Shown here in pieces: positions 3,343 through 13,793 of a stretch of DNA of 20,367 bases. Numbering within the stretch: position 1 is the stretch's first letter; the number at the start of each line of letters is the position of its first letter. Made by a program: the position numbers and the translations under genes. A model generated the notes under the pieces. The model did not search any database. It had not been told where the DNA came from and saw only the letters and a list, made by a program, of their open reading frames with translations. Origin of the DNA: a virus; the IMG/VR virus record IMGVR_UViG_3300008450_008154, positions 1-20,367 of that record. One strand, given 5' to 3'.

Positions 3343-3826
3343 AACATCCAAAGAGGAACTAAAGTATTGGGACGATATACTTGACGAATATGAGAATTCT
3401 ATAGGACTAGGTATATATTCAGATGTTCATGGATTCACAGAAAGTGAACTAAATACATACTTCACCATGAATAGAGATGCTATAGAGAAATTAGATCCGG
3501 AAGATTGTGCTCAAATATCTTATAGATTAGCACAGTACGCATTCTTCTTACAGAGAACTCTTAATAGAGAAATTGCCAGACACAACTGGGCAGAAGAAAA
3601 TATTAAAGAGACCATAGCAGATGAAATAAATAATTATAAAGGATACGGCTTTGTAGAAAAATCTATACAAGCCATTAAACATAATGATAAAGCCATCTCA
3701 TTGAATAAGATTAAAAAGTATGCTCAACAGCGCATGGATAGACTATCATATTTAGCTAATAGCGTTAAAAATCTTTCAGATATTATGCTTTCTGTACAAA
3801 GGACAAAGGTGAAACATGGGTCTTGA
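3332..3826 (+). CDS. Helical protein, possible UvsY-like mediator
   Basis: A 164-aa mostly helical, charged protein. The central part (LAQYAFFLQRTLNREIARHNWAEENI, cited in two overlapping helices) and the C-terminal half (QAIKHNDKAISLNKIKKYAQ, then RMDRLSYLANSVKNLSD) have the general layout of small recombination mediators such as T4 UvsY: a helix bundle with a conserved short linker of Lys/Asn/Asp and a final helix. Position directly after the RecA-like recombinase and before the helicase fits such a job. No sequence motif is decisive, and primary sequence similarity to UvsY is weak by eye. Treat the mediator role as a hypothesis. Confidence 0.6.
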   Translation: MSAKTSKEELKYWDDILDEYENSIGLGIYSDVHGFTESELNTYFTMNRDAIEKLDPEDCAQISYRLAQYAFFLQRTLNREIARHNWAEENIKETIADEINNYKGYGFVEKSIQAIKHNDKAISLNKIKKYAQQRMDRLSYLANSVKNLSDIMLSVQRTKVKHGS

Positions 3827-4181
3827 TAATGATGATATCAAAGCATTAATAGCAATATTACAAAAGGGTTTAACTAATGATGATGAAAATGAGGTAGAGA
3901 CACCAAAGCGTAAAACTCAGCGATCATCCAAACCACGACAAACCAAAAAGAAAAGCACAAACAAATTTGATAACATGCCAGAATTTGGTATGTGTAAAGA
4001 GGATGTGGAGATAGATCGTAAGATCAAAAAACCACCACCATCACTAAGAAATAGGCCGTTTGAACTTGTTAAGGTTCAATGTAGAATTTGTGGTAAAAAA
4101 GATAAGGTTGCACCAAGTATTCTTGAGTCTATGGAAATAGAGAGATACAAGTGTAACAAGTGCGCAACAGGAGCAGGCTGA
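3816..4181 (+). CDS. Zinc-ribbon protein with basic linker
   Basis: A 121-aa protein with an acidic, helical start (LDNDDIKALIAILQKGL), a long Lys/Arg/Ser-rich linker, and a C-terminal four-cysteine ribbon: VQCRIC near residue 90 and YKCNKC near 113. A ribbon plus basic linker suggests a nucleic-acid-binding adaptor. It sits between the mediator candidate and the helicase, and its TGA shares a base with the helicase ATG (TGATG). A helicase-loader or primosome role would fit the position but is not shown by the sequence. Confidence 0.7.
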   Translation: MGLDNDDIKALIAILQKGLTNDDENEVETPKRKTQRSSKPRQTKKKSTNKFDNMPEFGMCKEDVEIDRKIKKPPPSLRNRPFELVKVQCRICGKKDKVAPSILESMEIERYKCNKCATGAG

Positions 4182-5638
4182 TGATTTTGTGTGATCCCGC
4201 CGCAGAAAGAGCGGTATTGGCTGGTATTTGTTCGTATGGTGAAAATGCTTATTTGGACATTGCTGATATATTACAGGAATCATCTTTTACTGTAGATAGC
4301 AATACCATTATCTTCAAATGCTTAAAGCATCTTTGCGAGAATAATCACGGAACTATTGATATAGCCTCCATCTATTCTGTGGCTCAGGATTTGGGAGTTT
4401 CTCATGTTCTTTCAAAGAAAGAGGAAACCCAGCATCTTAAGGCTATTATGGATTTTCCTGTTAGTCTTGATAATGTTAGAAAATTTGCGGCCAAGATAAG
4501 AAAGCTAGAAATAGCTAGACTATTAAGAAAGCAGCTAGAACTAGCTCAGGATAAAATCTTAGAGATAACAGGATCAGAACCAATATCTTCGATTATAGGA
4601 TTGGCCGAAGATAGTATTTTTAATTTCACTTCGCTGCTAAATGATAGTGATAGTGGTCCAGAACAAATATCTTCTTCTATTGATGATTATATTAAACATC
4701 TAGAAGAAACTAAATTGGATCAGGTGGGTATTCCAACAGGATTTCCAATATACGATCAGGCTATTGGTGGTGGACTAAGACGAGGAACAATCAATGTAAT
4801 TGGTGCTAGACCAAAAGTTGGTAAAACTCTTATGTCTGATAATATGAGTAAAAACATAGCAGCATTAGGTATTCCCATATTAAATATGGATACCGAAATG
4901 AATAAAGAAGATCATATTCATAGACTATTGGCTATGATGAGCGAAGTTGATATTAACTCTATCGAAACTGGTAAATTTTCTGAATCTGTTGACAAAAAGA
5001 ATAAGATACTATCCTCAGCAGAAAAACTAAAAGGTATGAATATATACCACAAAAGTATTGCTGGTATGCCTTTTGAGGATCAATTAGCTATAATGAGAAG
5101 ATGGCTAGTTAAAGAGGTAGGACTAAATGATGATGGTACAGCCAAAGAGTGTGTGATATTTTATGATTATCTAAAGCTTATGGATAGTGCTGGTATAAGC
5201 CAAGATCTTAAAGAATATCAGGTTTTAGGATTTATGATGACCAGTTTGCATAATTTTGCTGTTAGATACAAAGTGCCAATCGTAGCTTTTATACAGTTGA
5301 ATAGAGATGGTATTTCAAAAGAAAGTACCGACTCTGCTAGTGGTTCAGATCGAATCATTTGGTTGTGTAGCAATTTCTCAATTTTTAAACGCAAGAGCGA
5401 TGAAGAAATAGCAGAAGATGGGCCAGATGGTGGTAATCGTAAACTAATACCATTAGTATGCAGACACGGTGGCGGTCTGGACGATAACGATTATATCAAC
5501 TGTCATATGAAGGGATGGTGTGCCCAAATTAAAGAGGGAAGAACGCACTTGGAAATTAAGAATAATGTCAAATCTAATGAAGAAGGTTTTATTGTAGATG
5601 AAAACGATAGCGATGAAGACCAAATCCCATTTGAATGA
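4181..5638 (+). CDS. dnaB: DnaB-type replicative helicase
   Basis: Hexameric 5'-3' replicative helicase of the DnaB family (485 aa). The N-terminal domain (DPAAERAVLAGI, then helices to about 150) is joined by a linker to a RecA-fold motor. Walker A is GARPKVGKT at 208-216, the catalytic Glu is in MDTEM (239), Walker B is VIFYDYLKLM with Asp329, and the sensor is FIQLNRDG with Gln372. A late VCRHGGGLDDND segment stands in the usual Arg-finger/DNA-loop region. I start at ATG 4181 (TGATG junction, GGAG about 10 nt upstream) because the DPAAERAVL motif normally lies near the N-terminus; the frame is open to 4160. The C-terminus ends in an acidic DEDQIPFE tail unusual for DnaB. Confidence 0.93.
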   Translation: MILCDPAAERAVLAGICSYGENAYLDIADILQESSFTVDSNTIIFKCLKHLCENNHGTIDIASIYSVAQDLGVSHVLSKKEETQHLKAIMDFPVSLDNVRKFAAKIRKLEIARLLRKQLELAQDKILEITGSEPISSIIGLAEDSIFNFTSLLNDSDSGPEQISSSIDDYIKHLEETKLDQVGIPTGFPIYDQAIGGGLRRGTINVIGARPKVGKTLMSDNMSKNIAALGIPILNMDTEMNKEDHIHRLLAMMSEVDINSIETGKFSESVDKKNKILSSAEKLKGMNIYHKSIAGMPFEDQLAIMRRWLVKEVGLNDDGTAKECVIFYDYLKLMDSAGISQDLKEYQVLGFMMTSLHNFAVRYKVPIVAFIQLNRDGISKESTDSASGSDRIIWLCSNFSIFKRKSDEEIAEDGPDGGNRKLIPLVCRHGGGLDDNDYINCHMKGWCAQIKEGRTHLEIKNNVKSNEEGFIVDENDSDEDQIPFE

Positions 5639-7449: not shown

Positions 7450-7977
7450 ATGCCAGCTAAAAAATATTTTATAACTAAAGAATATTTAGAAGAACATTAT
7501 ACCAAACAAAAAAAGAGCACAACCACCATAGCAAAAGAATTAGGACTTAAATCCACAAATACGCTTAAAAGATTATTAAAAAAATACGATATACCCAACA
7601 ATAATAATAGGGCTGGTAGGCCAGTAAAAACCACACAAAAATTTGGTGAAATACACAAATCATATATCTGTACATTAAGATTACGAGCAAAAAGATTAGA
7701 TTATGAATTCAATTTAAATGGAAAATTTTTATGGGAATTATTTCTAAAACAAAATAGAAAATGTGCTTTATCTGGCATAGAAATAGGATTTCCTCAAGCC
7801 TGGGGCGTTAAAAGTAAAACAGATATTACTGCGTCTCTAGATAGAATAGATAGTAATAAAGGATATACAAAAGATAATGTGCAATGGGTACACAAGCATA
7901 TAAACACTATGAAAATGCATATGACAGATATGGAGTTTATAAGTATCTGTAAGAAAGTAGCGGAATACAACAAGTGA
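7450..7977 (+). CDS. HTH-HNH homing-type endonuclease
   Basis: A 175-aa free-standing endonuclease of the phage HNH homing type. The N-terminus (ITKEYLEEHYTKQKKSTTTI then KELGLKSTNTLKRLLKKYDIP, about 9-49) is the helix-turn-helix that positions such enzymes. The nuclease part has RLRAKRLDYEFNL, FLWELFLKQNRKCALSGI, then SLDRIDSNKGYTKDNVQWVH at about 129-148 and INTMK. It has its own strong AAGGAG (7436-7441) 8 nt before ATG, unlike the coupled core genes, which fits a later insertion between the dNMP kinase and the RecB-like nuclease. Its TGA overlaps the GTG start of the next gene. It is clearly related to the HNH gene at 9105-9824 but lacks that gene's zinc ribbon. Confidence 0.88.
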   Translation: MPAKKYFITKEYLEEHYTKQKKSTTTIAKELGLKSTNTLKRLLKKYDIPNNNNRAGRPVKTTQKFGEIHKSYICTLRLRAKRLDYEFNLNGKFLWELFLKQNRKCALSGIEIGFPQAWGVKSKTDITASLDRIDSNKGYTKDNVQWVHKHINTMKMHMTDMEFISICKKVAEYNK

Positions 7978-9017
7978 TTATAACCTATCTTCGAAGTTCA
8001 AGTTTTAACACACACTGTTTCTGTGCTCAACAGTATTTTCTTGAATATGTACTAGGCATTAGATCCCCATCAGGAATTAAGGCCGATAAGGGCACTATAG
8101 TACATAAAGCTTTAGAGATTTTAGCCTATATTAAGCTAACATTACAAAATAAAGAAAATATTTATACTGATGATATTGTTGGTCCTATTAATGTTCATGA
8201 CTATGATTTAGACCGAATTATTGATGCTGTTTATCAATACTATACGTCTCAGTTTAAACATCACTCATGGTCGGCCAAAGATTTAAAAGATTGTCGTCTA
8301 TGGGTCAACAAAGCGATCACAGATCACAACGGAACCTTCGATCCACGCAATAGAAACATACTTCAACCAGAGCAACATTTTGATATAGTTATAGATAAAC
8401 CTTGGGCCTATTATTCGTACAAAACACAATCAGGAATTTTAGATGGTAATTTGGCGATAAAAGGAACTATTGATCTTATTACGGAAGTGGACGAAAATAC
8501 CATAGAAATTGTTGACTGGAAAACTGGCCGCAGACTAGACTGGGCAACTGGTCAAGAAAAAACTTTGGAAAAACTTCAAAATGATCCTCAGTTAAGAATA
8601 TACCACTATGCTGTGCAAAAATTGTATCCGAAAATGGATCATATTATTTTTACCATCAATTTTATTAATGATGGCGGAGCATTTAGTGTTTGTTATGATA
8701 AGAGCGATTTGCCAAAAACAGAAAATATGATTAGACAAAAGTTTGAAACCATACGAGATACCACAAGACCATCACTTAACAAAAGTTGGAAATGCACCAA
8801 ATTATGTCATTTTGGAAAAACCACTTTTGAGAATAGTCATATTCTACCCATCATAGAATATAGAGATAATCAAATATGTGCCAAAGATACTTTCATGACC
8901 AAGTGTGAACAAATCAAACACGATATTGATCTGAAAGGCATTAACAATGTGATTGACCAACACACTTTTCCTGGATATACTGTTGGTAAGTACAAAGCAC
9001 CCGGAAGCGCAGAATGA
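7974..9017 (+). CDS. RecB/Cas4-family PD-(D/E)XK nuclease
   Basis: Exonuclease-type protein of the PDDEXK_1 (RecB/Cas4/AddB-like) family, 347 aa. Motifs in order: YLRSSSFNTHCFCAQQYF (QxxxY-like start with Cys15/17), KGTIVHKALEIL with His44, a Glu in QPEQHFDI (133), IKGTIDLI with Asp167, and IEIVDWKTGRR with Asp181 and Lys183. Late cysteines (CTKLC at 274-278 and others near 302 and 311) together with Cys15 could hold a 4Fe-4S cluster as in Cas4/AddB; this is inference. The start is GTG 7974, inside the end of the HNH gene, with only a weak ribosome binding site. The likely role is DNA-end processing in recombination or packaging, or recycling of host DNA. Confidence 0.82.
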   Translation: MIITYLRSSSFNTHCFCAQQYFLEYVLGIRSPSGIKADKGTIVHKALEILAYIKLTLQNKENIYTDDIVGPINVHDYDLDRIIDAVYQYYTSQFKHHSWSAKDLKDCRLWVNKAITDHNGTFDPRNRNILQPEQHFDIVIDKPWAYYSYKTQSGILDGNLAIKGTIDLITEVDENTIEIVDWKTGRRLDWATGQEKTLEKLQNDPQLRIYHYAVQKLYPKMDHIIFTINFINDGGAFSVCYDKSDLPKTENMIRQKFETIRDTTRPSLNKSWKCTKLCHFGKTTFENSHILPIIEYRDNQICAKDTFMTKCEQIKHDIDLKGINNVIDQHTFPGYTVGKYKAPGSAE

Positions 9018-9104: not shown

Positions 9105-9824
9105 ATGAGAGGCAGAAAAGTAGACAATGGTCGTTTTGTAAAATGTTACGATAATAAATTAACAAAAAAATATCTAGAAAAAGAATATCCAAAACAAGGA
9201 GCCTATAAAATAGCTAAAAGTTTGGGGATTCACGTTAAAACCGTATATAATTATTTAGGATATTACAAAATACCAAGAACTAGACAAGAAAATAATAAAA
9301 TTAAAAAAGGCCAAATTTTTGGATTGTTAACTTTAGTAGAACCTGTTGGAAAATTAAAAAACGGCACAATTACATGGAAGTGTATGTGTGACTGCGGAAG
9401 CGAGACAATAGTACCATCCTCTAGGATAAAAATAGGCAAGGTTAAAAGTTGTGGCTGTTTGAACAAAATTAGTGGCTCAAAAAGATGGAATTGGAAGGGG
9501 TATTGTGGTATTAGTGGAAGCAGATTTTGTGAGATTAGATTAAGAGCCAAAAAGAAAAAATGGGATTTCAACCTAACTCCAAAATTCTTATGGGAACTAT
9601 TTCAACAACAAAACAAGAGATGTGCTATAACTAATGAAATTATAGATTTGAATATTGATGGATCATTAGATAGGATAGACAGTTCAAAAGGATATGTAAA
9701 AAATAACGTTTGGTGGGTTAAAAAAGATATAAATAAGATGAAACTAGACTTTCCATTAAATTTGTTTATCGAATTATGTGAGAAGGTTGTAGCCAATAAG
9801 GAGAATATAAGAAATGGGCGTTGA
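9105..9824 (+). CDS. HTH-zinc ribbon-HNH homing-type endonuclease
   Basis: A 239-aa probable homing endonuclease with three modules. First, an HTH (LTKKYLEKEYPKQGAYKIAK then GIHVKTVYNYLGYYKIP, about 19-57). Second, a zinc ribbon typical of phage HNH/AP2-associated proteins (GQIFGLLTLVEP, WKCMCDCGSE, VKSCGCL; Cys93/95/97 and 116/118). Third, an HNH domain (RLRAKKKKWDFNL, FLWELFQQQNKRCAITNEII, GSLDRIDSSKGYVKNNVWWV). It has its own AAGGA. Its last codons contain AAGGAG (9798-9803) and the ATG (9814) used by dnaE, so it is welded to the polymerase gene. The dnaE reading frame is disrupted 32 nt after this gene ends, which recalls mobA beside the gene 60 bypass in T4. Confidence 0.9.
   Translation: MRGRKVDNGRFVKCYDNKLTKKYLEKEYPKQGAYKIAKSLGIHVKTVYNYLGYYKIPRTRQENNKIKKGQIFGLLTLVEPVGKLKNGTITWKCMCDCGSETIVPSSRIKIGKVKSCGCLNKISGSKRWNWKGYCGISGSRFCEIRLRAKKKKWDFNLTPKFLWELFQQQNKRCAITNEIIDLNIDGSLDRIDSSKGYVKNNVWWVKKDINKMKLDFPLNLFIELCEKVVANKENIRNGR
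9798..9803 (+). promoter_or_regulatory. Ribosome binding site for dnaE
   Basis: AAGGAG, a full Shine-Dalgarno core, lies 10 nt before ATG 9814 and inside the 3' end of the HNH gene. It is the best translation start signal in the area, and it points to the ATG that opens the PHP-motif leader rather than to ATG 9866. This supports the view that dnaE translation begins at 9814. Confidence 0.75.
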
Positions 9825-9858
9825 GCAACGATATGTGCCGCTACACGTCCATTCCTAA
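9814..9858 (+). CDS. dnaE: DnaE first segment (PHP motif HVHS), ends at TAA
   Basis: Fourteen codons, MGVEQRYVPLHVHS, then TAA. RYVPLHVHS is the start of the DnaE PHP domain (the family reads roughly F-V-x-L-H-x-H-[ST]-x-[YF]-S-L-L-D-G), and HxH supplies metal ligands of the PHP site. The continuation MFSLLDGLSKPEQI is found in another frame starting at 9866. Removing exactly the 10 nt TAAGTGAACT (9856-9865) would join TCC to ATG and restore HVHS-MFSLLDGL with canonical spacing. So this is the true N-terminus of the polymerase, cut off by a small insertion. Either ribosomes bypass the 10 nt, or the peptide is made alone and the rest restarts at 9866, or the sequence contains an error. Confidence 0.75.
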   Translation: MGVEQRYVPLHVHS

Positions 9859-9887
9859 GTGAACTATGTTTTCACTTTTGGATGGAC
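9847..9887 (+). promoter_or_regulatory. RNA hairpin around the dnaE frame break
   Basis: A long imperfect hairpin straddles the insertion. GTCCAT (9847-9852) pairs with ATGGAC (9882-9887). T9853 is bulged. CC (9854-9855) pairs with GG (9880-9881). After a small internal loop, AAGTGAA (9857-9863) pairs perfectly with TTCACTT (9871-9877), closing a 7-nt loop CTATGTT that exposes ATG 9866. The total is 15 bp. The putative take-off codon TCC and the TAA stop lie on the 5' arm. In T4 gene 60 the take-off codon and adjacent stop are also held in a hairpin. The base pairing is seen directly; a recoding function is inference. Confidence 0.6.
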
Positions 9888-11251
9888 TATCCAAACCAGA
9901 GCAAATAGCAGAAAGATGCAAAGAGATCGGAGCATCTGCTTGTGCGTTAACAGATCATGGTAACATAGCAGGAACCATCAAGTTTTATACTGCTATGAAA
10001 AAAGCTGGACTAAAGCCTATACTTGGATGTGAACTTTACATTTGTAGTCAAAACCCAAAAATCAAAGAAAAAGATAACAAAAAACTAAGTCATTTTCTGG
10101 TATTGGCTAAGAATTATTCAGGATGGAGAAATCTTATCAAGATAGTTTCATCATCCAATAATCCAGAATATTATTATCATAAGCCGAGATTGGATTTACC
10201 AACACTAAAAGATCTTCATTCAGGGGATTTGATCGGAATAACTGGTCATCTTGGATCAACACTAGCAGATCAAATACTAGACGGGGATGCTCTTAGAGAT
10301 GATTGGCAAAATATAGGAGTACAACATATATCTTATCTTAAGACTATATTTGGTGATCATTTGTTTTTGGAAGCTCAATTAATAGATAAAGATAATCTGC
10401 CAATCCAAGAAATCCTCACAAACTGCATCAGAAAATTGGGACAATTAACCAATACTAAAGTTATATGTACTCCTGATGCTCATTATTGTCGCAAAGAGGA
10501 TGCTGTTGATCAGCGAGTATTATTGTGCAACAATCTTAAGATTACATTCTCTGATATTAGTCGTAAAATCATAAACGATCAAGATATTCCTATGGGGTGC
10601 TTTTTTACATCAGATAATTATCATATTCCATCTCAGGAGGAAATGAAGAACATACACACAGAAGAAGAAATCAATAATACAAATTTTGTGTGTGATTTAG
10701 TGGAAGAATATAACATACTAAGTAAACCTAAATTACCATTATTTAAATGTCCACCAAATTTCTCTCAGGATGAATATTTAAGAGAACTGTGTAGAAACGG
10801 ATGGAGAGATAAAATAGCAAATGTTGTACCTAAAGAAGATCAACAACCATACTTGGATCGTATCAAATACGAACTAGAGGTTTTACAGGGTGCTGGGCTG
10901 AGTAGTTATTTTTTAATAGTACAAGATATTGTGAACTATGTTAAAAGAGAAGGATGGCTTCCGGGACCGGGACGAGGTTGTTTTATACCAGAAACAAGAG
11001 TTAAAATGGCTTCTGGTGAATTGATGCCTATCTATAATATAGAAATAGGAGATCAAGTAATAGATGCTTTTGGAAATAAACAAAGAGTCTATGATATAAT
11101 GAGATATGAAATAGATGAAGAAATACTGGAAATAGAATTAGAAAATGGTAAAATCATAAGATGTACAAAAGATCATAGATTTTTAACACTAAATAGGGGT
11201 TGGGTTGAAGCCCAGTATCTATCAGAAAATGATGATTTGGCCAAAATATAA
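9866..11251 (+). CDS. dnaE: DnaE N-terminal part fused to split-intein IntN
   Basis: N-terminal half of a bacterial-type family C polymerase (PolIII alpha). Residues 1-371 carry the PHP domain (CALTDHGNI with Asp/His, KPILGCELYI with Glu, TPDAHYC with Asp/His) and the start of the palm (LGLSSYFLIV-like GAGLSSYFLIVQDIVNYVKREGW, quoted in part). The extein ends at LPGPGRG, a motif that continues SAAGS in intact DnaE. Residue 372 is Cys1 of an intein. The intein N-domain runs 90 aa to tandem stops TAA TAA. PHP ligands other than the upstream HxH are all present, so the domain looks functional if joined to the leader at 9814. Must trans-splice to the product of 12093-12926. Confidence 0.92.
   Translation: MFSLLDGLSKPEQIAERCKEIGASACALTDHGNIAGTIKFYTAMKKAGLKPILGCELYICSQNPKIKEKDNKKLSHFLVLAKNYSGWRNLIKIVSSSNNPEYYYHKPRLDLPTLKDLHSGDLIGITGHLGSTLADQILDGDALRDDWQNIGVQHISYLKTIFGDHLFLEAQLIDKDNLPIQEILTNCIRKLGQLTNTKVICTPDAHYCRKEDAVDQRVLLCNNLKITFSDISRKIINDQDIPMGCFFTSDNYHIPSQEEMKNIHTEEEINNTNFVCDLVEEYNILSKPKLPLFKCPPNFSQDEYLRELCRNGWRDKIANVVPKEDQQPYLDRIKYELEVLQGAGLSSYFLIVQDIVNYVKREGWLPGPGRGCFIPETRVKMASGELMPIYNIEIGDQVIDAFGNKQRVYDIMRYEIDEEILEIELENGKIIRCTKDHRFLTLNRGWVEAQYLSENDDLAKI
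10979..11248 (+). mobile_element. Split intein, N-terminal half (IntN)
   Basis: Ninety codons from the TGT of Cys1. Block N1/A is CFIPETRVKMASGELMPIYN, followed by IEIGDQVIDA. Block N3/B is GKIIRCTKDHRFLTL with the TxxH motif (Thr-Lys-Asp-His), followed by GWVEAQYL. This is a complete intein N-domain without an attached endonuclease. It stops where contiguous inteins usually carry their endonuclease. Its partner IntC lies 0.85 kb downstream in another frame, so this is a natural split intein. Insertion site is after GPGRG in DnaE. Confidence 0.92.
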
Positions 11252-11253
11252 TA

Positions 11254-11271
11254 AGAACCTCTTCCTGGACC
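11254..11271 (-). repeat. Inverted copy of the GPGRGS insertion-site motif
   Basis: Read on the minus strand, these 18 nt are GGTCCAGGAAGAGGTTCT, encoding GPGRGS, the very hexapeptide split by the cassette. The corresponding extein DNA (GGACCGGGACGAGGT plus AGT) differs only at synonymous positions: 12 of the first 15 bases match. It lies just after the IntN stops. Similarity does not extend to flanking codons (YYI instead of AAG), so it may be chance. Confidence 0.45.
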
Positions 11272-11293
11272 ACTTTTGGTGTATCCTACTATG

Positions 11294-11299
11294 AAAGGA
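11294..11299 (+). promoter_or_regulatory. Ribosome binding site of the intein-embedded nuclease
   Basis: AAAGGA sits 9 nt before ATG 11309 and selects that start over the in-frame TTG 11276 and ATG 11291, which lack a comparable site. It shows that the nuclease is translated on its own rather than as an intein domain. Confidence 0.6.
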
Positions 11300-11308
11300 C
11301 AATCTTGT

Positions 11309-12127
11309 ATGGAATATATAGCATTTAAATCTTTACAAGACAATAATTTTGAATACAGGGGATTAAGCAATAAACCTATTAAAGACATATGTATAAAATG
11401 CAATAAAACTTTTGAATACGCTAAACTTAAGAAATTTATTAGGAGCAGAGTAAACATCCCAAAAATATATTGGTGTCAATGTCAGAAATGTTTTTTGCGA
11501 TATAGAACTATTGATAATTCAGACTGGATAGAAAAAAATAGGAAAGCACAACTTATAGCGCAAAATAAAGAAGAACAAAAGAAAAAGAACGCGGAGGCAG
11601 TATCAAAATCTTGGACAAGAACAAGAAAAAATAAAGCTTCTGAATATCTTAAAGAAAGATGGGTTAATGATGAGGCTTTTAAAAATAAGGCTACTCTTAA
11701 TTTAACCAATAATAGAAGATATAATTTTACAAACGGAATTGCTACTGGGGGTCTTAGAGGATTATATAACGATATATACTATGATAGTGCGCTAGAACTA
11801 TCTTTTATATTGTGGTGTGAATACAATAGTATGCCGATTAAAAGATATGATCAAGATTCTATTAAGTATGTAGATGAAAATACTATCGAAAGAGAATATT
11901 TTCCTGATTTTATTATCAATAACACAACTATTGTCGAAATAAAAGGAAAAGGAATTTGGTATAATCGACACTTTGAACGCAATAAATTAAAAATGATAGC
12001 AGCAAAGACCAAATTTAATGCAAAGTATTGCATATATTACGACTGGGATGAACAAACAAAATTATTTTATCGAAAGGCTAGAAAATTACATCATGAAAAT
12101 AAAAAGAAAAACGTCGCTATCATATAA
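11309..12127 (+). CDS. Free-standing PD-(D/E)XK homing nuclease in split intein
   Basis: A 272-aa nuclease lying between IntN and IntC. N-terminal zinc ribbon CIKC (28-31) and CQCQKC (56-61). Then a Lys-rich helical region with two SW/RW repeats (SKSWTRTRKNKASEYLKERW, followed by a similar NDEAFKNKATLNL) that resembles NUMOD-type DNA-contact modules. Then the catalytic core: DSALELSFILW with Glu163, EYFPDFII with Asp200, and IVEIKGK with Glu210-x-Lys212, a textbook PD-(D/E)XK set. No LAGLIDADG or HNH motif is present. Its frame is the same as IntN, separated by TAATAA, which hints at descent from a contiguous intein. Its last 35 nt overlap the IntC start in another frame. Confidence 0.85.
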   Translation: MEYIAFKSLQDNNFEYRGLSNKPIKDICIKCNKTFEYAKLKKFIRSRVNIPKIYWCQCQKCFLRYRTIDNSDWIEKNRKAQLIAQNKEEQKKKNAEAVSKSWTRTRKNKASEYLKERWVNDEAFKNKATLNLTNNRRYNFTNGIATGGLRGLYNDIYYDSALELSFILWCEYNSMPIKRYDQDSIKYVDENTIEREYFPDFIINNTTIVEIKGKGIWYNRHFERNKLKMIAAKTKFNAKYCIYYDWDEQTKLFYRKARKLHHENKKKNVAII

Positions 12128-12197
12128 GGGTACTGTGTGCGATTTGTCTGTAACCAATACAGCATCTTATAATGTTGAAGGGATTGGAGTACACAAT
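12093..12197 (+). mobile_element. Split intein, C-terminal half (IntC)
   Basis: Thirty-five codons. Block F is VCDLSVTNTASYN and block G is VEGIGVHN followed by Ser+1, so the essential His-Asn-Ser is intact. The block F His seen in many inteins (THNY) is Ala here (TASY). Size matches C-halves of other natural split inteins. Confidence 0.88.
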
Positions 12198-12926
12198 AGT
12201 GCGGCGGGGTGTTTGGTATCCTATCTCATCGGCATAACTAATATTGATCCTATAAAATATAGTCTGCTTTTTGAAAGATTCTATAATGAGGGTCGTAACA
12301 CAGCAGACAATATTTCCATGCCAGATATTGATGTAGATATACCTATCGAAAAGCGAGAAATGGTTATTCAATATATCAAAGACAAATATGGTTCGGACAA
12401 AGTTTCTCAAATGGTTACTTTCAATACGATCAAGGGTAGGGGCGCACTAAAAGACGTATTAAGAGTATATGGTAATATTACATTTGAAGAAATGAATAAG
12501 ATAACCAAAAATATCCCCGATGAGTCTAAGATTGCCGATGATCTTCAAGAGATGAAAGAAGAAACTGGCGAAGCATCCATCGTTCGATGGGCTTTGGAAA
12601 ACGATAATGATAAGCTTAAAGAATGGTGCTTTATTGATGAAAAAGGACAACTACAAGGCCTCTTGTCAAAAAGGTTTGAACAGGCTATTAGACTAGAGGG
12701 CACCAAGTCAAATCAGTCCAAACATGCTGCTGGTATTGCTATCAGTAGTGAACCATTAAATGAATTATGTCCTATGGTTTATGATAGTAAGAATGATCAG
12801 TTAATAGCAGGAATGGAGATGCAAGACTTGGAAAGCATAGGAATTATTAAGTTTGATATTCTTGGTGTTGCTCTTCTTGATAAAGTGATGACAATCAGAG
12901 ACCTTTTAAATGAAGGAGTTCAATAA
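12093..12926 (+). CDS. dnaE: Split-intein IntC fused to DnaE catalytic part
   Basis: Thirty-five intein residues (MKIKRKTSLS to GIGVHN), then the DnaE extein from Ser+1: SAAGCLVSYLIGITNIDPI. The extein (242 aa) carries the polymerase palm with all three catalytic acids: MPDIDVDI (two Asp) and IIKFDILGV (third Asp), plus HAAGIAIS and MVTFNTIKGRGA segments typical of family C. The protein stops at LNEGVQ, soon after the third Asp, where E. coli DnaE continues to the fingers. ATG 12093 gives an IntC of the usual 35-37 aa size; in-frame ATGs at 12018 and 12048 would add an unrelated extension. The ribosome binding signal is weak, and the start lies inside the nuclease gene, so initiation is probably coupled. 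Confidence 0.88.
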   Translation: MKIKRKTSLSYKGTVCDLSVTNTASYNVEGIGVHNSAAGCLVSYLIGITNIDPIKYSLLFERFYNEGRNTADNISMPDIDVDIPIEKREMVIQYIKDKYGSDKVSQMVTFNTIKGRGALKDVLRVYGNITFEEMNKITKNIPDESKIADDLQEMKEETGEASIVRWALENDNDKLKEWCFIDEKGQLQGLLSKRFEQAIRLEGTKSNQSKHAAGIAISSEPLNELCPMVYDSKNDQLIAGMEMQDLESIGIIKFDILGVALLDKVMTIRDLLNEGVQ

Positions 12927-13111
12927 TGATGGTTAAGTTTAAAGATGTGGCTGAAAATACATTATTTAGCAAAGATGGTGTGGAATTCAAAAAAATACAA
13001 CTAGTAAAAATTAGTTGTTGTAAAACAATAAATGCTATACAAGTATTAGATCCTAGAAATAGAGTGCTTTTTAATCAAGAAGATGAAGTAGAAGTGAATG
13101 ATCAACTATAA
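12926..13111 (+). CDS. Small beta-type protein, 61 aa
   Basis: A 61-residue protein (VKFKDVAENTLFSKDGVEFK, then KIQLVKISCCKTINAIQVLD, then FNQEDEVEV). The alternation of beta strands, a central SCCKTINA motif and an acidic end matches a class of small phage beta-barrel proteins of unknown role. Expression looks strong: AAGGAG at 12913-12918 lies 7 nt before the ATG, which overlaps the TAA of the polymerase fragment (TAATG). It is embedded between two polymerase fragments and overlaps the exonuclease start by 14 nt, so a replisome-associated role is possible. It carries no catalytic motif. Confidence 0.72.
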   Translation: MMVKFKDVAENTLFSKDGVEFKKIQLVKISCCKTINAIQVLDPRNRVLFNQEDEVEVNDQL

Positions 13112-13793
13112 TAAGATTTGTGTTTTTGATTTTGAGACAGACGGATCGGATCCATCAGAATGCAGTCCTGTACAGATTGCTGCTATTATGATAGATCCAT
13201 TAAATTTGGACATTATACCCGGCTCAGAGTTCAATATAAACTTTAGGCCAGAAGTTTTGGAAAACAACGAAAACTACAAATACGAAACAGATATATTAGA
13301 TTTTCATTCAAAGGTTAAAGGGTGTTCTCAAGACGAGGTTTTAGCCTCGTGGTATAAATATCCTAAACAGGATCATTCTTGGAAATTATTCACAGCCTAT
13401 TTGGATAAATACCATTCACGAGCAACTAAAAAAAGTCAATTTTCTGCACCTATTGCTGCTGGTTATAATATACATAGATTTGATCTACATATCATAGACA
13501 GATTAAGCAAAAAGTATGGTAATTTGAACAAAGAAAAAAGAACAGATTTATTTTATCCTAGAGACACTATAGATGCTATGCAATTAATGTTTTATTGGTT
13601 TGAGCATAGTAGTGATCTTAAAAGTTATTCGTTAGATACTGTGAGAGATTATCTGGGAATTAGCAAAGATGGTGCTCACGATGCTCTAAAAGATGTTCAG
13701 GATACAGCAGCAATAATAATTAGGTTTTTAAAGTTACATCGTAATTTGGGACAAAAGGTAAAGTTTAAGAATTCTTTTGCAAATCAGGCATGA
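13098..13793 (+). CDS. DEDDh 3'-5' exonuclease (proofreading-type)
   Basis: DnaQ-like exonuclease of 231 aa. Motif Exo I is VFDFETDG (Asp11, Glu13), Exo II is AGYNIHRFDLHII (Asn124, Asp129), and Exo III is HDALKDVQDTA with His194 and Asp199, giving the full DEDDh set. The segment SLDTVRDYLGI before Exo III is typical of epsilon and PolC exonuclease domains. It lies inside the polymerase locus, between the catalytic part (ending 12926) and the fingers part (from 13790), with an ATGA junction to the latter. This strongly suggests it proofreads for this DnaE. It overlaps the upstream 61-aa gene by 14 nt. Confidence 0.9.
   Translation: MINYNKICVFDFETDGSDPSECSPVQIAAIMIDPLNLDIIPGSEFNINFRPEVLENNENYKYETDILDFHSKVKGCSQDEVLASWYKYPKQDHSWKLFTAYLDKYHSRATKKSQFSAPIAAGYNIHRFDLHIIDRLSKKYGNLNKEKRTDLFYPRDTIDAMQLMFYWFEHSSDLKSYSLDTVRDYLGISKDGAHDALKDVQDTAAIIIRFLKLHRNLGQKVKFKNSFANQA

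Follow-up and report, generated by a model that had tools for sequence, protein, structure and literature searches.

Short stop-codon bypass elements predicted at the 5' end of viral dnaE genes, at times next to an HNH endonuclease gene

How can a DNA polymerase be made from a gene in which a stop codon closes the reading frame after fourteen codons? The question is raised by the dnaE gene in a virus record of 20,367 bases (IMG/VR record IMGVR_UViG_3300008450_008154; the whole of this stretch is called the window below), whose open reading frames (ORFs) and matches to Pfam and PHROGs point to replication genes of phage type. A short leader ORF encodes the first motif of the PHP domain (HVH) and ends at TAA, and the DnaE body (MFSLLDGLSK...) follows from position 9866, ten nucleotides (nt) further on. 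A first-pass annotation had suggested that ribosomes bypass these ten nucleotides, as part of a second, much shorter endonuclease-plus-bypass cassette of the kind found in phage T4. Comparison with relatives makes it very probable that the window holds a mobile cassette, consisting of an HNH endonuclease gene and a re-coded dnaE 5' end with a short programmed bypass. It also makes it likely that this is one member of a natural, mobile and diversified family of stop-hops in many uncultured phages, where a DNA polymerase is made by skipping 6-12 nt after any of the three stops, whatever the frame. On some occasions the element would have travelled together with an HNH homing endonuclease, and today it mostly stands alone.

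The gene order around the site is a PD-(D/E)XK exonuclease gene (7974-9017), the HNH-type gene, the 14-codon ORF, TAA and DnaE (Table 1). In uninterrupted relatives (natives in the following) the motif is encoded in a single frame, for example as MNYIPLHCHSMFSLLDGL, immediately 3' of the exonuclease gene; this equivalent of the leader aligns with LHQHTQFSLLDG in the PHP domain of the DNA polymerase III alpha structure 2hpi, from Thermus aquaticus. Much of what the first-pass annotation had described was found again: a strong Shine-Dalgarno sequence, ATG and leader followed directly by a stop, and an HNH gene that ends 31 nt 5' of the TAA and whose product matches endonuclease/HNH families of PHROGs (best four E 2e-20 to 5e-13), while Pfam gave no match at E 0.001 and, at E 5, none above a cut-off. 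Removal of the ten nucleotides restores the spacing of the uninterrupted relatives L001, L003, L004 and L005. The ORF downstream of the gap matches PHP (E 3e-31), DNA_pol3_alpha (E 2.5e-12) and Intein_splicing (E 5.9e-9). A simple +1 frameshift at TCC-TAA is ruled out, as that frame runs into TGA at 9860-9862.

Relatives were gathered by pattern scans, the first of which (CAYGTNCAYTCN-TAAGTG) identified many dnaE genes with the same stop and other gaps; two further ones brought in other gaps and stops. One pattern scan gave 86 hits and a scan of genome contigs 99. All asked for a TCN take-off codon; AGY was permitted at allele collection, where a stop after the take-off codon was required. The 124 hits in fetched loci, some of which share a contig, correspond to 54 distinct alleles, including that of the window. 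Early hairpin and codon analyses were done with 29 TAA alleles, before TAG and TGA alleles and L341 raised the set to 54; for comparison we used either 54 natives (codon entropy, synonymous recoding) or 94 (endonuclease survey). In addition, two scans were run with the DnaE body alone, with the stop absent from the query. Among the best 80 of at least 555 candidates, the element was present at 15 loci and absent from 65 uninterrupted ones, and the same numbers (15 and 65) were obtained among the best 80 of at least 596; no third kind of locus was found within these two sets, the counts being of loci, with some contigs or alleles repeated, rather than of independent alleles. In all 30 element loci the stop immediately follows a UCN codon, even though these scans did not demand it.

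Isolated phages (50,697 records) had no DNA match to the 181 nt around the element, and their 923 DnaE matches were all less than 60% identical (34% for the top one among the matches listed). Of the 99 pattern-bearing stretches from genome contigs one is an element, L341. Its contig is filed under a Chitinophagia metagenome-assembled genome, which may point to the host or may be due to faulty binning; we do not take it as proof of a host.

The comparison of related dnaE genes with and without the insertion, recommended in the first-pass annotation, thus set 54 gap-bearing alleles beside uninterrupted relatives that lack the gap. It disposes of an assembly or sequencing error, about which that annotation had cautioned: L018 and L341 have an identical 10-nt gap in genomes that otherwise differ, and the same or similar gaps recur in many different genomes. 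L002 does not count as an independent genome, since its contig matches the window without a difference for 11,113 nt; 36% of the synonymous sites differ between the bodies of L002 and L341.

Across the 54 alleles the gap measures 6 nt (one allele), 7 (two), 8 (three), 9 (12), 10 (16), 11 (19) or 12 (one), and the remainders of 0, 1 and 2 after division by three (14, 18 and 22 alleles) show that all three frames are used. The sequence comparison supports the proposed cassette, but with a gap that varies in length instead of always being 10 nt; a frame-preserving hop of constant length is ruled out. All three stop codons occur (UAA 30, UAG 21, UGA 3), and the take-off codon is UCU in 34 alleles, UCC in 18, and UCG and UCA in one each. 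The codon before the resumption codon, our candidate landing codon, is UCU (18), UCA (12), UCC (3), UCG (1), ACU (11), GCU (6), GCC (1), UUU (1) or UGA (1): it is UCN in 34 of 54 alleles, has a middle C in 52, and is identical with the take-off codon in 16. At the positions one or two bases from this middle base, C is found in 0, 0, 4 and 39 of the 54 alleles; the last value reflects CAY resumption codons, of which this C is the initial base. Decoding would resume at ATG in 13 alleles, including the window, and at CAT, CAC or GAA in the other 41. The two shortest gaps have exactly matching codons: L161 reads UCU-UAA-UCU (gap of 6 nt) and L182 UCG-UAAA-UCG (7 nt).

The leader has 14 codons in 48 alleles, 13 in five and 12 in one, and each chosen leader start is preceded by a Shine-Dalgarno match of at least four bases (54/54). 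Its peptide conserves Y-x-P-L-H-V-H-S (PLHVHS was demanded by the collecting pattern, the tyrosine was not), with the leucine codon varying between TTA, CTA, TTG, CTG and CTT. The constant length could hint at a signal in the nascent peptide, but this is suggestive only.

A hairpin at the insertion had also been noticed at first pass, and we found it as 8 base pairs (bp), a 2x2 internal loop and 7 bp, with AAGUGAA and UUCACUU as arms of the upper stem; the predicted folding energy is -18.9 kcal/mol (z -6.4), and none of 200 shuffles was as stable. The mean over the 54 alleles is likewise -18.9 kcal/mol, versus -6.6 kcal/mol when the flanking codons are recoded synonymously, and in 52 alleles at most 3 of 300 recodings reached the stability of the natural sequence, which is true of only one of 54 natives. 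Codon choice in the S-L-L-D-G part of the body is less variable in the 29 TAA alleles (entropies 1.04, 0.57, 0.57, 0.22 and 0.83) than in the 54 natives (1.86, 1.99, 1.37, 0.85 and 1.69).

The two arms of the upper stem co-vary: pairs are AAGUGA/UCACUU, UAACGA/UCGUUA, UAGUGA/UCACUA, UAGAGA/UCUCUA, UAGCGA/UCGCUA and GAGUG/CACUC. When arms were exchanged among the 14 distinct combinations, the observed 70 pairs (mean of the exchanges 45.9, maximum 63) were not reached in any of 10,000 trials. Of the cells in the 29 TAA alleles, 96.8% are paired, a fraction that drops to 49.0-55.6% if one arm is slid by one column and to 24-46% with two or three columns. None of 500 shuffles reached the observed values for paired cells, for cells changed on both sides or for the covariation score, and nine did so for pairs changed on both sides. 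Kinship of the sequences may inflate these co-variation counts. Stems were also compared pairwise, because our alignment A4 puts the gap of L192 in the wrong place. L161 and L182 combine short gaps and exact codons with the lack of a stable hairpin, and the poorly matched alleles all have hairpins; a trade-off between hairpin and codon match is possible.

The gene downstream of the gap appears to be alive: the ratio of nonsynonymous to synonymous substitution rates (dN/dS) of the DnaE body is 0.02-0.09 in eight of ten pairs, indicating purifying selection. In two relatives, L354 and L355, a leader of the element type (MGAKLNYVPLHVHS) and the lower stem are present without a gap, and their DNA joins HVHS to HFSLLDGL, which is the junction expected from a bypass; L353 is similar without the lower stem. 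From their sequences all three look like cured descendants.

A homologue of the window's endonuclease lies directly upstream of 8 of the 54 elements and of none of the 94 natives, and a remnant of it upstream of five further elements and one native, L124. For elements versus natives, Fisher P is 2.2e-4 for intact genes and 7.3e-6 for intact genes plus remnants, with relatedness uncorrected in both values. As remnants were found, the gap can outlast the endonuclease gene; elements without the gene may have lost it or may never have had it. A quickly built tree of 82 bodies, from 54 natives and 28 of the 29 alleles available at that stage (the remaining one was too short), in which L102 and L022 are long branches, shows the element in scattered positions; it requires at least 12 changes, and well-supported branches force four of them. 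L013, which has the element, and the native L153 are 63, 83 and 70% identical in the first three 30-nt segments of the body and 97-100% in the next three, as if a cassette had brought a short piece of dnaE along. The window has a second HNH-type gene (7450-7977), just before the exonuclease gene and overlapping its start, with a counterpart in L013 at 3821-4345; the two HNH proteins share about 47% identity over their C-terminal part.

In the mechanism that we propose, the ribosome would start at the Shine-Dalgarno site, make the 14-residue leader ending in ...LHVHS and come to a halt when peptidyl-tRNA-Ser occupies UCY in the P site and the A site holds the stop codon. The hairpin, which begins in the stop codon, would hinder release and help the anticodon to detach, and the mRNA would slide by 6-12 nt until the tRNA re-pairs on UCN or, with two of three bases, on ACU or GCY. 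Decoding would resume at the next codon and yield an intact PHP domain with HVHS joined to xxSLLDG. That ribosomes hop, how efficiently they do so, what each signal contributes and whether the 14-residue nascent chain takes part are inferences of ours, as is any protection of the site from the endonuclease.

Several observations weigh against such a bypass family. The pattern scans demanded PLHVHS or HVHS, and two of them demanded TAA, with one allowing TAA, TAG, TGA and TGG. In the window the landing codon ACU pairs with the tRNA of UCC at two of three positions only (positions 2 and 3); by the counts of UCN and middle-C codons above, the poor match that raised concern at first pass lies at one extreme of a spectrum within the family. 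The landing codon of L234 would be UGA. L161 and L182 have no stable hairpin and are the only alleles not beyond the synonymous control, so the hairpin is not indispensable; the upper stem is broken in L051 and L061, and one of the five pair measures failed its control in the 29-allele alignment (further pair types, reached by 403 of 500 shuffles). Of the two body pairs outside the low dN/dS range, L010/L013 has 0.33 and is probably misaligned, as it was compared ungapped while the match lengths differ by one codon; L002/L018 is undefined by saturation. The endonuclease adjoins the gap in the window, as had been claimed, but neither gene nor remnant was found next to 41 of the 54 elements, and L124 has the remnant without the element (possibly a cured site or an earlier stage). 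Finally, the body frame was surveyed for ATG and GTG over a stretch that begins at the nearest in-frame stop on the 5' side and reaches ten codons beyond the resumption codon; 31 of 54 alleles had one or the other, and 22 of the remaining 23 have TTG at the fifth body codon, which is a leucine codon common in natives too.

These start codons speak for termination and re-initiation, whereby the leader would be released and renewed initiation near 9866 would yield either a DnaE that lacks the first PHP motif or a PHP domain of two chains. Of the 31 alleles, six have the start at the resumption codon itself, 13 have GTG two or three codons before it, 11 have ATG 7, 10 or 11 codons before it, overlapping the leader (in L013 this ATG opens an ORF beginning MSIPKWAMFSLLDG), and one has ATG seven codons after it; the window is among the 13 alleles that resume at ATG. 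However, 23 alleles lack ATG and GTG in the surveyed stretch, and in L092 none of ATG, GTG and TTG occurs before a point 43 codons into the body, on the far side of the TDHG motif. Because the candidate starts vary in place and kind between alleles, restart would need different kinds of start in different alleles, and its product would in every case lack the HxH motif. The leader, by contrast, conserves Y-x-P-L-H-V-H-S although five synonymous leucine codons are used, and HxHS and body form one chain in the uninterrupted relatives. Restart at ATG 9866, which the first-pass annotation had left as an alternative, is possible in the window taken alone, but as the mechanism of the family we reject it, with 41 of 54 alleles resuming at other codons and 23 lacking ATG and GTG; re-initiation in general we regard as unlikely.

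The conserved hairpin spanning the gap would also suit an RNA that is cut and religated, as a tiny intron or by hairpin processing, with 6-12 nt removed before translation, and some phages encode RNA ligases. Yet the position of the 3' boundary within the apical loop varies, a stable hairpin is missing from L161 and L182, and processing leaves unexplained both the stop after the take-off codon at all 30 body-scan loci and the middle C of the last gap codon (52/54); we consider it very improbable. Readthrough of the stop, through a suppressor tRNA or code reassignment and whether or not combined with a frameshift, is extremely unlikely: gaps of 6, 9 and 12 nt stay in frame (14/54) and 3 of 10 records have tRNA gene matches, whatever the anticodon, but 40 of 54 gaps change the frame, all three stops are used, and even in-frame readthrough would insert two to four residues into a motif that has kept its spacing in the uninterrupted relatives. 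Equally hard to credit is a dnaE gene broken by a recent selfish insertion and now decaying. An endonuclease gene or remnant does adjoin 13 of 54 elements, but the low dN/dS of the eight pairs, among which synonymous differences reach 0.74 per site, speaks for constraint on the polymerase, and the element has been retained and re-shaped across many lineages.

Table 1. Features of the element and of dnaE in the window
Feature	Position	Strand	Basis
HNH-type homing endonuclease gene, 239 residues, 5' part of the putative cassette	9105..9824	+	ORF, PHROGs
Shine-Dalgarno sequence AAGGAG of the dnaE leader, within the endonuclease gene	9798..9803	+	sequence
dnaE leader ORF1 MGVEQRYVPLHVHS, 14 codons, first PHP-domain motif HVH	9814..9855	+	ORF from ATG 9814
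5' arm of lower stem, GUCCAUUC, pairs with 9880-9887	9847..9854	+	folding; synonymous-recoding control
Predicted take-off codon UCC (Ser)	9853..9855	+	sequence
Putative coding gap TAAGTGAACT: UAA 9856-9858, spacer, candidate landing codon ACU 9863-9865	9856..9865	+	sequence; not in uninterrupted relatives
5' arm of upper stem, AAGUGAA, pairs with 9871-9877	9857..9863	+	folding; co-variation
DnaE ORF2: PHP domain and polymerase start, into N-half of intein; resumption codon AUG 9866	9866..11251	+	ORF, Pfam
3' arm of upper stem, UUCACUU, in DnaE codons F-S-L	9871..9877	+	folding
3' arm of lower stem, GGAUGGAC, in DnaE codons L-D-G-L	9880..9887	+	folding
ORF with intein C-half and DnaE continuation	12018..12926	+	DNA_pol3_alpha E 7.1e-55; C-half from our own reading of the sequence

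Further downstream, DnaE is interrupted by an intein as well (10979-12200). Its N-half ends at a double stop (11249-11254) and is followed by an endonuclease-like ORF (11276-12127) with a weak Phage_endo_I match below the cut-off of that family; the C-half is in another frame and starts at 12018 or later. The arrangement resembles an intein that is split by an endonuclease gene, presumably what is called a 'fractured gene', and L013 shows a similar beginning. DnaE is also divided into two genes by an exonuclease gene (RNase_T, DnaQ-like) at 12926-13790, an order common to L001 and L004.

The PD-(D/E)XK exonuclease gene has peculiarities of its own in relatives. In L102 (8280-10295, minus strand) an exonuclease gene has an in-frame insertion of about 325 residues with an intein-like end. 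In L001 (3930-3976), and also in L004, L005 and L010, it seems to begin without ATG, GTG or TTG, reading IITYLRSSS or IVTYIRSSS from ATA/ATT/ATC-type codons at the stop of the preceding gene. A second bypass in the upstream exonuclease gene was considered and rejected, as several relatives show only such a start.

The closest known counterpart of the dnaE element is gene 60 of phage T4, which likewise consists of two ORFs of one protein with a (here presumably untranslated) gap between them and has uninterrupted relatives. As in gene 60, a stop lies directly 3' of the take-off codon (54/54 alleles), a stem-loop is found at take-off (52/54) and, in the window, an HNH gene adjoins, its T4 counterpart being mobA. 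Bonocora and colleagues reportedly described mobA and the gene 60 bypass as a mobile cassette. The differences are equally clear: gene 60 has a gap of 50 nt between glycine GGA codons and a 46-codon leader, the dnaE elements have 6-12 nt, serine UCN and 12-14 codons; gap length and frame vary between relatives; and the site is the dnaE 5' end, in many alleles, mostly without an endonuclease. In T4, an A-site stem-loop and the nascent peptide are reported to block termination and promote sliding (PMC11194080), and gene 60 bypassing is described as apparently unique among T4-related phages (PMC3014915). In the sources cited here, efficient programmed bypassing by bacterial ribosomes rests on T4 gene 60 as the sole natural example, besides the inserts of yeast mitochondria. 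No report of a dnaE stop-hop family was found among the open-licence papers listed by our literature searches. If the family is what we think it is, its 54 natural alleles, which differ in gap length, stop, frame, closeness of codon match and hairpin sequence, would be a ready-made mutagenesis series for mRNA release and landing; it suggests that the pairing of homing endonuclease and bypass known from T4 is a recurring arrangement, and that stops near gene starts in viral metagenomes can conceal intact genes.

Synthetic 'stop-hops' in Escherichia coli use matched codons flanking a stop (PMC5009743, its reference 54). L161 has the same plan, UCU-UAA-UCU, with nine nucleotides that would specify one residue; unlike the synthetic constructs, the dnaE elements are natural and conserved, and 52 of 54 have a hairpin. 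That 2016 review states that natural in-frame stop hopping was not known, and mentions a likely bypass in the terminase gene of a Streptomyces phage (PMC5009743). Magnusiomyces capitatus mitochondria resemble the dnaE elements in that short blocks are skipped between take-off and landing codons that are sometimes imperfectly matched, but there the 81 places in 12 genes are mitochondrial and, as that account has it, seemingly independent of mRNA context (PMC5009743). For the tape-measure gene of Corndog-group mycobacteriophages, which lies behind an HNH insertion at the gene start, ribosome bypass or an ACG start has been proposed; the gene is a different one, and the passage describes no family with stop, matched codons and hairpin (PMC4351075). 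By its anatomy the dnaE element would work like gene 60 and the synthetic stop-hops, yet it is not the gene 60 element itself.

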